NCBI RefSeq assembly: GCF_009882975.1 | Contig: NZ_WTUX01000011.1 | Span: 299,362 to 363,361, forward strand | Length of the DNA stretch: 64,000 nt | Reading direction: 5' to 3' | From: Maritimibacter harenae | GTDB taxonomy: Bacteria; Pseudomonadota; Alphaproteobacteria; Rhodobacterales; Rhodobacteraceae | Shown: positions 55,660 through 60,395 of the stretch, one piece after another | How positions within the stretch are numbered: position 1 is the stretch's first letter | Layout of the letters: the number at the start of each line of letters is the position of its first letter | Notes under the pieces: generated by a model | The model's input: only the letters and a program-made list of their open reading frames with translations | What the model was told of the DNA's origin: nothing | Databases searched by the model: none | Program-made: the position numbers and the translations under genes

Positions 55660-56112
55660 ATGGCGGGCATGAAAGGGTTGAAGAAACGCAGGCGGGTCCA
55701 GATCATCCTGGTCACCTTCGCCGCGCTGATACTGGCCACCGGTCTGATCGGCTACGCGTTCCGCGACGGGATCAACTATTTCCGCTCGCCCACGCAGGTG
55801 GCCGAGGAGCCGCCGGCGCCGAACGAGGTGTTCCGGATCGGCGGGCTCGTCGAAGAAGGCTCGATCGTGCGCGGGCAGGGCGAAACCGTGACCTTCGCCG
55901 TGACCGACGGGGCGAACCGGGTGCCGGTGTCCTACACGGGCGTTCTGCCGGACCTGTTCGGCGAGAACCAGGGCATGGTCGGCACCGGAAGCTACGTCGA
56001 CGGCGTGTTCAGGGCGACCGAGATCCTGGCCAAGCACGACGAGGAATACATGCCCAAGGAAGTGCTCGACACGCTGAAGGAACAGGGCGTCTACGTCGAG
56101 CCGAACTCCTGA
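55660..56112 (+). CDS. ccmE: cytochrome c maturation haem chaperone CcmE
   Basis: 150 aa. A basic N-terminus and one membrane helix (about 15-33) precede a periplasmic OB-fold. The haem-binding His 126 and Tyr 130 are in LAKHDEEYMPKEV. It hands haem to CcmF-CcmH, encoded 4.3 kb downstream; the cassette for gene-transfer-agent release and barrels lies between. No other ccm genes are near. Confidence 0.96.
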   Translation: MAGMKGLKKRRRVQIILVTFAALILATGLIGYAFRDGINYFRSPTQVAEEPPAPNEVFRIGGLVEEGSIVRGQGETVTFAVTDGANRVPVSYTGVLPDLFGENQGMVGTGSYVDGVFRATEILAKHDEEYMPKEVLDTLKEQGVYVEPNS

Positions 56113-56177
56113 TTACCGGCTCCTTAACGCTTTGAACCGAGCCTCGTCTTCGCATTCCAGGTGCGGAGGTCGAGAGC

Positions 56178-56789
56178 ATGCAGAGCGTTCGGGAGATCGC
56201 CGAAAGCATCGTGGCGCGCGAAGGCGGCTACGTGAACGACCCGGACGATCCGGGCGGGGCGACGAAACATGGGGTCACCATCGGGACGATGCGCCGGTTG
56301 GGCCGGGATCTCGATGGGGACGGGGCGGTGACGGTGGAGGATGTCCACGCGCTCACCCCCGGTCTCGCCACCGACATCTTCATTGAGCACTACTTCGAGG
56401 CACCGGGGATCTCTGGTCTTCCGGAGGTGCTCCAGCCCTCGGTCTTCGACATGTACGTCAACGCCGGGGGCGAGGCGGTGCGCATTCTCCAGCGGCTCCT
56501 GGGGCGGATGGGCTTCGGCTGTGCCGTCGACGGGGTCATTGGGCCGCAGACACGGGCGGCCGCGGCTGCCGCGGCGGAGCGCGGACCCGGACACCTGGCC
56601 GATGCCTACGGTATCGCGCGGCGCAACTACTACTACCGCCTTGCCGACCGGCGCCCGGCCAGCCGCAAGTACGCGCGCAGGCGGGACGGGGGCAAGGGCG
56701 GCTGGATCCGGCGCGCCGAGGCGTTCATCTCCGGGACATACCACCTCACGGAGGCCGAGCATCGCGCCCGGGTGGCCGCATGGGACTGA
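56178..56789 (+). CDS. GH108 peptidoglycan hydrolase (endolysin, gene-transfer-agent release)
   Basis: 203 aa. The N-terminal AREGGYVNDPDDPGGATKHG is the GH108 muramidase signature with catalytic Glu (about residue 15), followed by VFDMYVNAGG and DGVIGPQTRAAAA of the C-terminal PG_binding_3 domain. No signal peptide, as for a holin-dependent endolysin. It overlaps the holin gene by 10 bases. In Rhodobacter capsulatus such an endolysin-holin pair lies away from the main gene-transfer-agent cluster and frees the particles; the same role is inferred here. Confidence 0.92.
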   Translation: MQSVREIAESIVAREGGYVNDPDDPGGATKHGVTIGTMRRLGRDLDGDGAVTVEDVHALTPGLATDIFIEHYFEAPGISGLPEVLQPSVFDMYVNAGGEAVRILQRLLGRMGFGCAVDGVIGPQTRAAAAAAAERGPGHLADAYGIARRNYYYRLADRRPASRKYARRRDGGKGGWIRRAEAFISGTYHLTEAEHRARVAAWD

Positions 56790-57310
56790 TCGACGGGACC
56801 CTGCGGCTTCTGTTCGGCGAGGGGCGCAACGTGCTGCGCGACACCGCCGGGGCGTTCTGGGAAAGCCCCGAGGCGGAGGCGGCGCGCGACGCGGCGCGCC
56901 AGCGGGCCGCCCTGGACCAGTTCGCCGCGGAGTTCGCGGGGGCGCGGCGCAGCGCCTTCGACCGGCTGATCGACGGGGTGAACCGGCTGCCGCGTCCTGC
57001 ATTGGCGCTTGGCACGTTGGGGCTTTTCGTCGCGGCGATGGTCGACCCGGTCTGGTTCGCGGCCCGCATGAACGGGATCGCGCTGGTGCCGGAGCCGCTC
57101 TGGTGGCTCATGGGCGCGATCGTGAGCTTCTATTTCGGCGCGCGCCACCAGGCGAAGGCACATGACTTCCGTCGGGCGCTGGCCAGGACCACGGTCGCGA
57201 CCGGGACGGTCCTGCGCAACATCGCGTCGTTGGACGCGCTCGAGGCCGGACGGCGTGCGGCAGGCGACGCCAACCCGGCCCTCGAGGCATGGGTGCGCAA
57301 TGAGGGCTGA
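56780..57310 (+). CDS. holin of the three-helix, gene-transfer-agent release type
   Basis: 176 aa. The N-terminal part is soluble and helical; then come RPALALGTLGLFVAAMVDPVWF and LWWLMGAIVSFYFGARHQAK, the membrane portion of the GTA_holin_3TM family, and a charged C-terminal tail. It should open the inner membrane to let the GH108 enzyme reach the wall. It overlaps the endolysin gene (10 bases) and the next small gene (11 bases). Confidence 0.88.
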   Translation: MGLIDGTLRLLFGEGRNVLRDTAGAFWESPEAEAARDAARQRAALDQFAAEFAGARRSAFDRLIDGVNRLPRPALALGTLGLFVAAMVDPVWFAARMNGIALVPEPLWWLMGAIVSFYFGARHQAKAHDFRRALARTTVATGTVLRNIASLDALEAGRRAAGDANPALEAWVRNEG

Positions 57311-57491
57311 GCTTTTCGTCCGGCTGCTGGCCGATCACGGTCCCTGGGTGCTGCTCGTTTTCTACCTGCTGTGGCGTGACCTGCAGAAGGACCAGGCGAC
57401 GCGCGCGGTGCTCGACAAGAATTCCGCCGTGCTGATCGAGATCACCACCATCATCCGTGAGCGGCTGCCCGGCCGGGGCGGGGCGCCATGA
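57300..57491 (+). CDS. 63-aa single-helix membrane protein in the lysis block
   Basis: Starts at ATG 57300 within the holin reading frame's last codons. One membrane helix (about 12-28, HGPWVLLVFYLLWRDLQK) is followed by a short charged helix and a Gly/Arg-rich end. It could be an anti-holin or an inner spanin-like protein; there is no lipoprotein partner beside it. Overlaps on both sides argue that it is translated. Confidence 0.6.
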   Translation: MRAELFVRLLADHGPWVLLVFYLLWRDLQKDQATRAVLDKNSAVLIEITTIIRERLPGRGGAP

Positions 57492-57667
57492 CGGCGGGCG
57501 TGGCAACGGGGCTGGTCCGGGTCAGGGACTGGCTGGCGGGACGGCGTCTCTTCCGTGCGCTGGAGCGGCATCAGCGGGCGGCGGATCTTCTGGATCATGC
57601 CGTGCGAGAGGTTCTTGGGCATGAAACAGGCGATCCTCCTCACCGGTCTGACGATTCTGGCGCTTGA
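57488..57667 (+). CDS. 59-aa basic protein in the lysis block
   Basis: Its ATG overlaps the stop of the preceding gene (ATGA), a strong sign of coupled translation. The sequence is basic and mostly helical: VRVRDWLAGRRLFRALERHQ, then a DLLDHAVREVLG helix and a Pro/Asp-rich end. No membrane helix. It overlaps the next frame by 47 bases. Unknown function; chance cannot be excluded. Confidence 0.45.
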   Translation: MTAGVATGLVRVRDWLAGRRLFRALERHQRAADLLDHAVREVLGHETGDPPHRSDDSGA

Positions 57668-58046
57668 GGCGGGGTTCCAGGTCGCGGGCGTGCGCCCCGT
57701 GGCGACCGTGGTCTATGGCGCGATCGCGCTCATGGCGGCGATGATTGCGGGAACCTTCCTGTGGCTCTGGATCGAGCGGACGACGCCGCTGGCCACGGGC
57801 ATGGTGATGAGTTGGGCGGGCATGGCCGCGCTCGCCGCCGGGTGGTGGCGTGAGATGCTGGGCGACGGCACGCAGCCCGAGGCGGGCGGTCCGGTGATTT
57901 TCGGGGTGCTGGCGCTGCCGATCGTGGGGTCGATCCTGCACTTCGCCGTGATGCAACGCAGCCTCGGCTGCCACGGTCCGCACTTCTTATGGCCGCCGGT
58001 GGCGGCGCTCGTCGTGTCGGGAGCCGTTTACGGGGTGGTTGCGTGA
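57621..58046 (+). CDS. four-helix membrane protein at the end of the lysis block
   Basis: 141 aa from ATG 57621 (MKQAILLTGLTILALEAG). About four membrane helices (about 3-20, 30-50, 62-82, 95-115). I do not recognise the family. It follows the lysis genes closely and ends 29 bases before the first outer-membrane barrel gene on the other strand. Whether it belongs to lysis or is a separate gene is unclear. Confidence 0.72.
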   Translation: MKQAILLTGLTILALEAGFQVAGVRPVATVVYGAIALMAAMIAGTFLWLWIERTTPLATGMVMSWAGMAALAAGWWREMLGDGTQPEAGGPVIFGVLALPIVGSILHFAVMQRSLGCHGPHFLWPPVAALVVSGAVYGVVA

Positions 58047-58074: not shown

Positions 58075-58572
58075 TCAGAATTGGTAGCCGACGCCGAATT
58101 TGAAATCGGTGCGCGAACGCGCCATGCCGGTGCCGCTGACGCGCATGATCTCACCGCGCAGCAGGTACTTGTCGGAAACGCTCAGGTCGCCGCCGATGCC
58201 GTAGTTGTAGATGAACCCGGCGCCGGTCATCACGCCCGCGCCGACCTTGCCGTAGAGCAGGAAGTCGTTGCCCAGGGCGTAGCCCGCGCGCACGTTGGCG
58301 AGGCCCGTGAAGGCGGAGCCGGCCGGAACCACATTGGTGGCCCAGTCGTACTGCGCTTCGACTTCCGCGCCGAGCACGAAGCCCGAGCTGACGCCGTAGT
58401 TGTAACCGGCGAAGACGCCGAGCGCGCCGTCGAGGTAGGGCACGCTGAAATCGTTCTGGATCAGCGCACCGGCGTAGAAACCGTCGTGCGACTGTGCGGT
58501 GGCGGTGGTGGCCGCACCCGCGAAAAGGGCGAAAGTCGCTGCGGTGGCGAATTTACGAAGATTGCTGCTCAT
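58075..58572 (-). CDS. small outer-membrane beta-barrel protein 1
   Basis: 165 aa. Signal peptide cleaved near ATAQ|S (about residue 27), then alternating strands with aromatic ends (FYAGALIQND, FAGYNYGV, LLYGKVGAGV) and the C-terminal DFKFGVGYQF with final Phe, the signal for BAM insertion. An eight-stranded OmpA/OmpX-like barrel is likely. It is one of three similar barrels in tandem on the minus strand. Confidence 0.85.
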   Translation of the reverse strand: MSSNLRKFATAATFALFAGAATTATAQSHDGFYAGALIQNDFSVPYLDGALGVFAGYNYGVSSGFVLGAEVEAQYDWATNVVPAGSAFTGLANVRAGYALGNDFLLYGKVGAGVMTGAGFIYNYGIGGDLSVSDKYLLRGEIMRVSGTGMARSRTDFKFGVGYQF

Positions 58573-58774
58573 CGTCGTCTCCTAAATCAATGTCGTGACG
58601 TTGCACGTTTTTCCGAACCCTGCCGAATTCAGGAGTCCTTCGGCAAGGTTCTAGCGTCCAAACGAGACGGATGACACCAAATGGTTGTTAATTCGCTACA
58701 GTTTCACACGTTTTTGGCCGCCTTTTTCGCAATATATTCCCATTCTCATGTTGTTATTCGGGTGATCTCGGCGC

Positions 58775-59275
58775 TCAAAACCGCAGTCCGATGCCCACCA
58801 CCGCGTTCGTGCGCGGCGCGCTTGGGGCCGTGAAAGGCGCCTGGCGGGTGAGTTCGGTGCGCAGGAACCGCCCTTGGCCAAGCCCGATGTCGAACCCCGC
58901 GCCCAGTTCCCATACCGGGCCGACGCCGCCCGTTTCGAACCCGAAGCCGCCGGTGCCGTAGAGCAGGGCGCCCGGCCCCGTGTCGACGCCGGCACGCAGG
59001 CGGGCCGTGCCGGTCACGGTGCGGGTGGCCGGGGTGAGGTTGGTGTTGCGCCAGTCGTAGGTGATGTCGCCCTCGACGCCGACGACCATATGGTCTCCAA
59101 AGCGCTCGGCGTAGCCCGCGAAGCCGCCCGCGGCACCGTCGATGCGCCGCGTGATGGCGTAAGGGGCGAGGTCGAGGCGCAGGTAGAGCCCGCCAAAGGG
59201 GCCGGACAAGTCCTGCGCTGCGGCGGCAGAGGCCGTCAGTGCGACCAGCACGGCTGCAAGAATTTTTTTTCGCAT
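58775..59275 (-). CDS. small outer-membrane beta-barrel protein 2
   Basis: 166 aa from ATG 59275. Signal peptide ends near AAAQ (about 22); barrel strands include GGLYLRLDLAPYA, FAGYAERFGDH, LLYGTGGFGFETGG; last residues NAVVGIGLRF with final Phe. Related in plan to barrels at 58075 and 59701. Function unknown. Confidence 0.83.
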   Translation of the reverse strand: MRKKILAAVLVALTASAAAAQDLSGPFGGLYLRLDLAPYAITRRIDGAAGGFAGYAERFGDHMVVGVEGDITYDWRNTNLTPATRTVTGTARLRAGVDTGPGALLYGTGGFGFETGGVGPVWELGAGFDIGLGQGRFLRTELTRQAPFTAPSAPRTNAVVGIGLRF

Positions 59276-59372
59276 GGCGCCATCCTCCCGGGATGCGCCC
59301 TCGCCCCAAGCAATGGCCCAGGGTGTGCTCAAAGGAGTTAATTTCGGGTTAAGACAAGATGGCCGCGACGTT

Positions 59373-59645
59373 TCAGAATTTCACGACCACGCCGGTCCAG
59401 ATTTCGCCGGATATGCCGATTTCCAGATCCGGGGCCTCGCGCGGCGTCTTCGAGGCCGGGGTGCGCGCGGCGCTGCGCGGGCGCAGGTCCTCGCGCCGGT
59501 CTTCACGGCCCGCGTCACGCGCCATGATCGAGGGACGCGCGGGCCAGCCGAACAGGTTCGGCTGTTCTTTTCCGCCCGAAACCGTTTGCGCGGTGGCCGG
59601 GACGGGAAGCGCCAGGAGCGCGGCGAGAGCGAATTGCCTGATCAT
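59373..59645 (-). CDS. 90-aa exported protein, possible barrel remnant
   Basis: A clear signal peptide (MIRQFALAALLALPVPATAQ) is followed by a polar, Arg/Pro-rich middle with no strands, then DLEIGISGEIWTGVVVKF ending in Phe, like the terminal strand of its neighbours. It lies between two barrel genes. It may be a shrunken barrel or an unrelated periplasmic protein. Confidence 0.6.
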   Translation of the reverse strand: MIRQFALAALLALPVPATAQTVSGGKEQPNLFGWPARPSIMARDAGREDRREDLRPRSAARTPASKTPREAPDLEIGISGEIWTGVVVKF

Positions 59646-59700
59646 GCGGTGAGAATGACGCGTACGGCGCGGCGGGGCCAGCCCGCCGCGCCACGCTCCA

Positions 59701-60171
59701 TCAGAAGCGGTAGTTCAGGCCGACCTTGGCCACGTAGTTCGCCGGACCGCCCGAGAAGGGCTGGTAGCGATCGACCCCGAGCCGGACCGAGGTGTTGCCG
59801 CCGACGGCATATTCGCCGCCCGCGCCGACGGTCCACAGGCTCGCGCCCGTGCTGTCCATGCCGGCGCCGACCTGGCCGTAGACCATGAACGGCGTGCCGA
59901 AGTCATAGCCCAGCCGCGCCGAGGCGGTGTAGATGTTCGGGTTCGACATCGGGAAGTAGGCGTCGCCCTCGACGCCGACGTAGCCGCCCGGTGTGAATTC
60001 ATAGAGATAACCGGCGTTCGCGCCGAAGCCGTAGGTGTTCGGCGACGTCGTGAAATCGCCCGAGCCGTAGGCGCCAAGGTAGAAGCCGTCGAAATCCTGC
60101 GCGGCGGCAGTTCCGGCGGCGGCCATGGCGAGCCCGAGGCCGAGTGCGATGGTCTTGAGTGAGCGGTTCAT
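59701..60171 (-). CDS. small outer-membrane beta-barrel protein 3
   Basis: 156 aa from ATG 60171. Signal peptide cut near AAAQ (about 25); strands FDGFYLGAYGSGDF, GYVGVEGDAYF, FMVYGQVGAGMDS; C-terminus YVAKVGLNYRF with final Phe. Family as for the other two barrels. It is divergent from ccmF; its 224-base upstream region contains repeated TGCA motifs but no clear operator. Confidence 0.84.
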   Translation of the reverse strand: MNRSLKTIALGLGLAMAAAGTAAAQDFDGFYLGAYGSGDFTTSPNTYGFGANAGYLYEFTPGGYVGVEGDAYFPMSNPNIYTASARLGYDFGTPFMVYGQVGAGMDSTGASLWTVGAGGEYAVGGNTSVRLGVDRYQPFSGGPANYVAKVGLNYRF

Positions 60172-60395
60172 GTGACCTCCTCTTGGTGTTTCGGCGCACG
60201 GCGCCGGCCCGCCCCGGGACCGTGCGCGCTCATGCAACATCCCCTCAATGCACAATGCAAAGCACTGTTCCGTGTGCGCTATGACGATCGGCAATGCATC
60301 GCGCGCACCGGCACCATTCTGCCGACGTTTACAATTGCGCGACATCGGGGCGCACGCCATTGGCGGACGCGGTCAAAGGGTCTAGAAGATGAGGC

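Follow-up and report, generated by a model that had tools for sequence, protein, structure and literature searches.

A gene-transfer-agent release cassette with a predicted hairpin over the endolysin Shine-Dalgarno sequence and an exchangeable slot behind the holin

Bacteria that produce gene transfer agents (GTAs) need a cell-bursting gene that is silent in most cells, and the locus described here raises the question of how such a gene can be tolerated next to housekeeping genes. It occupies positions 56178–58046 of a 64,000-nucleotide stretch of Maritimibacter harenae (assembly GCF_009882975.1, contig NZ_WTUX01000011.1, positions 299,362 to 363,361; hereafter the window), where a GTA endolysin, a GTA holin and three small genes (ORF63, ORF59 and ORF141) stand between ccmE and ccmF. 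By computation we find a cassette with conserved coding frames, a hairpin over the endolysin Shine-Dalgarno sequence, a promoter-like element of fixed spacing that overlaps the hairpin, and a slot behind the holin whose content is exchanged between relatives. We lean toward reading the whole as a GTA release cassette combined with a hairpin lock that the GTA promoter bypasses and a slot for holin partners. More tentatively, in a form that we would not yet call probable, we propose that a phage-derived and domesticated cassette is tolerated among the ccm genes because a hairpin with a promoter box as its left arm blocks endolysin synthesis from read-through transcripts, its stem drifting while pairing and box are kept, and that one form of the exchangeable holin-partner slot is the undescribed ORF63-ORF59-ORF141 module.

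The first two genes identify the cassette. The endolysin (56178–56789, plus strand, like all features below unless stated) is a GH108 muramidase that matches PF05838 (GH108, 1.4e-23) and PF09374 (PG_binding_3, 3.6e-22) far above the Pfam cut-offs and scores 351.4 bits against NF040573 (holin-associated N-acetylmuramidase), above the curated cut-off of 240. The holin (56780–57310), overlapping it by 10 bases, reaches 100.8 bits against PF11351 (GTA_holin_3TM; cut-off 24.8), and this GTA holin family is present in 251 of 295 genomes of the bacterial family Rhodobacteraceae. The accessible part of PMC3423380 links the counterparts of the two genes in Rhodobacter capsulatus, rcc00555 and rcc00556, to GTA release, and that of PMC4158056 describes the R. 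capsulatus lysis genes as co-expressed with the GTA module. Another GTA gene, GTA_TIM, lies on a different contig of the M. harenae genome. An earlier sequence-only reading of this DNA had proposed a GTA lysis block, and the NF040573 score, the GTA_holin_3TM match, the presence of GTA_TIM and the published role of rcc00555/rcc00556 all support it: a Rhodobacter-type GTA has its release cassette here, in the stretch from ccmE to ccmF. That reading gave the holin three helices, and Pfam names the family 3TM; two clear hydrophobic segments pass a hydropathy of 1.2. The endolysin has no hydrophobic export segment; in general holin-endolysin lysis, such an enzyme remains cytoplasmic until the membrane is opened by the holin.

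Behind the holin follow ORF63 (57300–57491), overlapping it by 11 bases, ORF59 (57488–57667), joined to ORF63 by a 4-base overlap (ATGA), and ORF141 (57621–58046), which overlaps ORF59 by 47 bases when counted from its ATG. All five tightly packed frames that had been read from the letters are thus present with their overlaps of 10, 11, 4 and 47 bases. We took the ATG at 57621 as the start of ORF141 (the program-made list of open reading frames begins at GTG 57555), and this position is a start in 20 of 20 aligned rows, one of them with TTG. Directly upstream of the cassette lies the host gene ccmE (55660–56112), the source of read-through mRNA in the model proposed below. Among 80 related loci, retrieved with the holin as query and in part cut by contig ends that affect neighbor counts, the order argC-ccmE-endolysin-holin-ccmF is nearly constant (argC in 66, ccmE in 75 and ccmF in 78 of the 80); two of them, L002 and L003, both from Maritimibacter, share 65–94% protein identity with the window over argC, ccmE, ccmF, endolysin and holin. 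In 51 of 72 loci the start of ccmF is no more than 350 bases from the holin stop codon and on its strand, and in 64 of 72 no more than 1100 bases away, so the lysis genes appear to be nested within a run of housekeeping genes.

Between ccmE and the endolysin the RNA is predicted to fold into a hairpin (56141–56177) whose left arm (56141–56156) pairs with a right arm (56160–56177) that includes the Shine-Dalgarno GGAGG (56165–56169, read from the sequence). Compared with shuffled sequences, the 42 bases before the endolysin start have a mean folding z of −2.67 over 79 loci, with z below −1 in 81%, against control leader means of +0.19 for holin (75 loci), −0.18 for ccmE (73), −0.37 for ccmF (78) and −0.04 for argC (66). 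A second leader set, which shares some organisms with the first, gave −2.61 for the endolysin (56), and −0.07 (holin, 45), −0.09 (ccmE, 52), −0.62 (ccmF, 40) and −0.01 (argC, 22) for the controls. Profiled over 201 offsets around the start, folding shows one trough of −2.99 at the leader, the next lowest value being −0.86, and 48 of the 79 leaders fall within the lowest 5% of their own locus. Stems in 124 unique leaders (135 before removal of those with N, no start codon near the expected place, a nearby contig end or a duplicate) have a median of 12 pairs, at least 6 pairs in 115, and a right arm that covers positions −12 to −8 in 113.

Evolutionary evidence for the stem is clearest within the genus. 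The leaders of eight genomes from the window's genus can be aligned, and three pairs in them carry compensatory changes, with nine cells altered on both sides. The covariation score of 0.324 exceeds the shuffled mean of 0.169 (0 of 500 shuffles as high; slid control maximum 0.152), the rows being related so that the shuffles are no strict test, and the number of covarying pairs taken by itself is unremarkable (equalled in 58 of 500 shuffles). In pairwise comparisons, double changes kept the pairing in 0 of 1 cases at 85–99% identity (slid control, none), in 15 of 17 at 72–85% (5 of 11), 12 of these 15 coming from one trio (L034, L063, L081), and in 1249 of 2497 at 58–65% (1496 of 3527); a looser version of the comparison kept 356 of 706. 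After single changes, pairing survived more often in the slid control than in the actual stems in three of the four identity bands; the 85–99% band had 9 of 22 versus 13 of 35 in the control. RNAalifold found no pairs in a plain alignment of 45 leaders because the stems do not align between genera, and the best Rfam match had an E of 1.9, nothing coming near a gathering score.

A promoter-like element overlaps the hairpin. It begins with TTAACG (56124–56129), which resembles both a CtrA half-site and a −35 hexamer, and continues 10 bases later with a −10-like AGCCT box (56140–56144) that runs into the left arm. TTAAC occurs at −75 to −35 in 66 of 79 endolysin leaders, against 0 of 75 holin, 0 of 72 ccmE, 0 of 78 ccmF and 2 of 66 argC leaders; the second set has it in 46 of 56 endolysin leaders and in none of the controls. 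Among 109 unique leaders with TTAA[CT], an AGCCT-type box follows the hexamer at a spacing of 10 in 42 and of 11 in 7, any other spacing occurring at most twice. The sequence-only reading had suggested looking upstream for a GafA-dependent promoter; the putative counterpart there is this element of fixed spacing with a CtrA-type half-site. The element resembles the Caulobacter RpoD promoter, given as TTGaCgS and GCtANAWC in the accessible part of PMC8144410, its first half also being of the CtrA half-site type. For R. capsulatus, the portion of PMC9638019 available to us lists three late GTA loci, the lysis genes among them, whose promoters carry putative CtrA half-sites, two of these promoters having putative GafA sites as well; a primer for rcc00555 in the available part of PMC6854486 contains TTAACC on the other strand. 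We rejected the idea that the element is specific to GTA genes. The genome has just one further exact TTAAC-N11-AGCCT (locus L151, G000:C59, near 5050, minus strand). It precedes what we read, without a family search, as a transposase-like frame, and stands 6 bases before an ATG of that frame, as if the transcript were leaderless.

In these leaders the left arm ends a median of 29 bases after TTAAC (10–90% range, 24–33). The usual distance from promoter to start would put the first transcribed base about 30 bases after TTAAC, so the fixed spacing between TTAAC and the box predicts a transcription start close to the end of the left arm. We computed Shine-Dalgarno accessibility over 109 leaders, taking −75 to +21 as the full transcript. 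In that transcript the Shine-Dalgarno sequence is unpaired with a mean probability of 0.14, compared with 0.40–0.47 for four control genes; in transcripts starting 25–34 nucleotides after TTAAC the value rises to 0.44–0.52. For a start 31 bases after TTAAC, the unpaired probability rises by more than 0.2 in 77 of 108 leaders and falls by that much in none. In the window's own leader the gain depends on the exact start, going from 0.02 to 0.28–0.77.

We infer from these results a start site, a read-through transcript and its silencing. In the proposed mechanism the hairpin would hide the Shine-Dalgarno sequence, its left arm doubling as the −10-like region of the element that begins with the CtrA-type half-site. 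Messenger RNA reading through from ccmE would carry the whole hairpin and yield little endolysin. A transcript from the GTA promoter, with its 5' end close to where the left arm ends or beyond it, would lack the lock and be translated, as in gene e of phage T4. The endolysin would then wait in the cytoplasm for the holin to open the membrane. Behind the holin, a slot would house accessory membrane proteins, here ORF63, ORF59 and ORF141, with ORF63 acting as a holin partner of BhlA-like build that adjusts when the lesion forms or how large it grows, and XhlA-like proteins doing the same in other clades.

That slot is variable. Of the 80 loci, 22 have the three-gene module there, 28 an XhlA-like gene (27 recognised by pattern, L056 by eye and without a profile scan), 3 a frame with two hydrophobic helices (L006, L013 and L018, assigned by eye) and 26 nothing recognised; one locus, L069, could not be assessed and was left out of the classes since its contig ends inside the holin. 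The two-helix frames encode 55–64 residues with two hydrophobic stretches. PF10779 (XhlA) matches 27 of 27 scanned slot members, with a best E of 4.9e-13, as does PHROG 1193; one member, L005, scores 31.7 bits against the PF10779 cut-off of 34.7. XhlA-like matches occur in 29 of the 295 family genomes, 24 of them with E of at most 1.4e-20, and in all 13 of these 24 strong genomes for which the holin has a place among the matches listed, the two genes adjoin; the five weaker matches have no cassette gene nearby. The window's genome gave nothing better than E 0.024 against XhlA. Strict mutual exclusion of ORF63 and XhlA per genome was rejected on account of G042, which has both, its XhlA match lying away from the cassette on another contig. 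A ccmF tree of 79 rows requires 9 changes of slot type, versus 38.9 in shuffles; by this pattern the types are inherited within clades yet have been exchanged or lost several times. The leader hairpin is alike whatever the slot holds, with z of −2.76 for the three-gene module, −2.84 for XhlA-like, −2.90 for none and −2.44 for two-helix loci.

The three small frames of the window behave as genuine genes under purifying selection, to judge from substitution patterns: pN is below pS in 231 of 231 sequence pairs for ORF63, 228 of 229 for ORF59 and 190 of 190 for ORF141 (pairs that are not independent), with median pN/pS of 0.28, 0.57 and 0.59. ORF63 is the best conserved, with 20 invariant columns in a 22-row alignment from which locus L002 was dropped for an in-frame stop (L002:5521–5640, a metagenome assembly; assembly error or decay). 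It occurs in 22 of the 80 loci, always with an ORF59 frame alongside (22 of 22); ORF141 is present in 19, and the other three ORF63 loci (L046, L061, L062) carry a different hydrophobic frame. The gene order ORF63-ORF141-ORF59 in L040 indicates that the three are separable. Across the family ORF63 was found in 31 of 295 genomes, with one match per genome in 31 of 31; leaving aside the window's genome and the fragment G019, 29 remain, some duplicating named loci, of which 27 have ORF59 and 23 ORF141 by profile, and all 29 have ORF63 at this locus. In 385 genomes of the class, five of them listed under the family, the window's own genome was the sole match. The doubt raised by the sequence-only reading, that the small frames might not be conserved, is answered in two parts: they are conserved under selection, but confined to some members of the family.

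ORF63 is modelled as a single helix (residues 2–55) with a hydrophobic segment at 6–24 in its hydrophobic first half, a build like that of BhlA. The window's protein had no Pfam match at E up to 10, PF10960 (BhlA) included, while PF10960 weakly matches 11 of the 22 ORF63 members (best E 0.0076) and is the sole Pfam family to touch more than one; the likeness is one of build, without family membership. An ORF63 profile found nothing at E of 1 or below among sequences in the Protein Data Bank (PDB). ORF59 is a small protein with no membrane segment and a net charge of 0, neutral overall and not basic as had been thought; profile searches including the PHROG profiles, its only phage-side search, gave no convincing family. 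ORF141, previously taken for a four-helix protein, has five hydrophobic segments and a confident model with five helices (pLDDT 93.2, pTM 0.87); it matched no family and, by Foldseek, nothing at E of 0.001 or below in PDB or BFVD, and its best VIA-align Z was 7.7 over 70 residues, which according to the tool's note may reflect only a common arrangement. Searched by tblastn against 50,697 phage records, ORF63 gave one chance match (E 9) and ORF141 and the holin none; in IMG/VR, 0 of 86 (ORF63) and 0 of 21 (ORF141) pattern matches were confirmed, and plasmids held no ORF63 match. By analogy, from its BhlA-like build and the XhlA-like occupants of the slot elsewhere, ORF63 is a plausible anti-holin or holin partner, and we infer that ORF59 and ORF141 serve as its co-factors. 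Between the cassette and ccmF, on the minus strand at 58075–60180, lie three frames that match one another's relatives and look by eye like small outer-membrane barrels; matches to them in that place occur in 8 of the 80 loci, every one of which has ORF63.

Could the leader work in another way? If GTA transcription started upstream, the hairpin would always be part of the GTA mRNA and would be opened by a factor, by temperature or by translation, as in a classical riboregulator. The strong structure at the leader suits this, the promoter is a prediction only, and L002 and L003 open little on truncation; set against it are the fixed spacing, which would have transcription begin close to where the left arm ends, the want of any Rfam match better than E 1.9, and loop and stem sequences that differ between genera, making a ligand pocket unlikely. 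We consider a riboregulator rather unlikely overall. Still less probable, in our judgement a poor candidate, is a ccmE terminator or RNA-end structure unrelated to endolysin translation: the hairpin does sit directly behind ccmE, but at least 4 T within 8 bases after the last paired base are found in only 9 of 124 leaders, the right arm lies over −12 to −8 in 113 of the 124, and a terminator scan of the window called none at the hairpin. The hairpin lock with promoter bypass, which we favor, has its own difficulties. Its −10-like box matches the published consensus poorly, and the element is not GTA-specific, given the exact copy before the transposase-like frame. The close relatives L002 and L003 go from 0.20 only to 0.21–0.47 on truncation. 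Between genera, pairwise covariation is weak or without excess over the slid control; at 65–72% identity double changes were kept in 108 of 203 cases versus 110 of 239, and single changes in 200 of 728 versus 376 of 1227. In one genus, represented by 21 genomes, the hairpin is mostly missing (6 of 21 cassette leaders have z below −1) and TTAAC at −75 to −35 occurs in 0 of 21 leaders (L155 and L177, which are not cassette loci, lie outside this count), so the device can be lost or replaced. In many leaders of this genus, that of G238 (L156–L176), a different conserved sequence, GTGGTGAGGTGACATG, precedes the start, and the device may have given way there to some other control.

The role of the three small genes is likewise contested. 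They might form a three-protein membrane function of their own, in secretion, immunity or envelope stress, and have no more than the lysis promoter in common with the GTA, an idea to which we give real but minority weight. ORF141 resembles nothing searched, and one genome, G048, without a PF11351 holin or PF05838 GH108 endolysin match in a search that succeeds in other genomes, keeps a TTAACC leader and ORF63-ORF59-ORF141 in place (locus L114, G048:C6, 3500–4470), which fits poorly with a pure helper of that holin. Speaking for a part in release are the single ORF63 copy in all 31 positive genomes, the position of all 29 retrieved copies at this locus, and the XhlA-like occupants of the slot in other clades. 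The G048 leader contains an inverted repeat by eye, and that genome has two GTA_TIM copies. The suggestion that these genes are spanins, prompted by their being small, overlapping and behind the holin, is very improbable and we rejected it, as none has a suitable cysteine: ORF63 and ORF59 have no cysteine at all, and ORF141, with its five hydrophobic segments, has a sole cysteine at residue 117, leaving no lipoprotein cysteine near any N-terminus.

If the favored reading is true, an RNA lock built into a promoter would explain how lysis genes are tolerated inside a housekeeping cluster. The exchangeable slot points to candidate lysis-timing proteins of Rhodobacter-type GTAs; for such GTAs the literature, in the parts accessible to us, names endolysin and holin only. 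In R. capsulatus, rcc00555 and rcc00556 are likewise an endolysin and a holin apart from the structural cluster, with a putative CtrA half-site in the promoter; the accessible accounts name two genes and neither a third slot nor a leader hairpin. The open-licence literature on GTA lysis genes, as far as its accessible portions go, yielded no report of a variable slot or a leader hairpin. LypABC of Caulobacter is also a GTA release system but consists of unrelated proteins; its authors, in the part of their account available to us, found no holin-endolysin homologues in Caulobacter. Among single proteins, the available part of PMC9527704 describes BhlA-type UviB and TpeE as small holins with one membrane helix, UviB being accompanied by an endolysin. 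This family (PF10960) and ORF63 are alike in being small, with one N-terminal membrane helix and a further helix, beside endolysins; unlike it, ORF63 has no Pfam match in the window's protein and travels with ORF59 and ORF141, and the BhlA family is described there as frequent in Firmicutes. XhlA (PF10779, PHROG 1193), which fills the same slot in 28 of the 80 loci, has by eye the inverse order, its coiled part first and its membrane helix last.

The closest parallel for the leader is gene e of phage T4, whose long early transcripts, according to the accessible part of PMC3014915, hide the Shine-Dalgarno sequence in a helix, while late promoters start inside the region of the 5' strand. Unlike in T4, it is host read-through that would be silenced here, and in a domesticated element known from sequence alone. 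In both leaders the longer transcript folds a lysis enzyme's Shine-Dalgarno sequence into a helix, here by computation, and where the T4 promoters lie in the 5'-strand region, the fixed-spacing element of the endolysin leader predicts a start near the end of the left arm.

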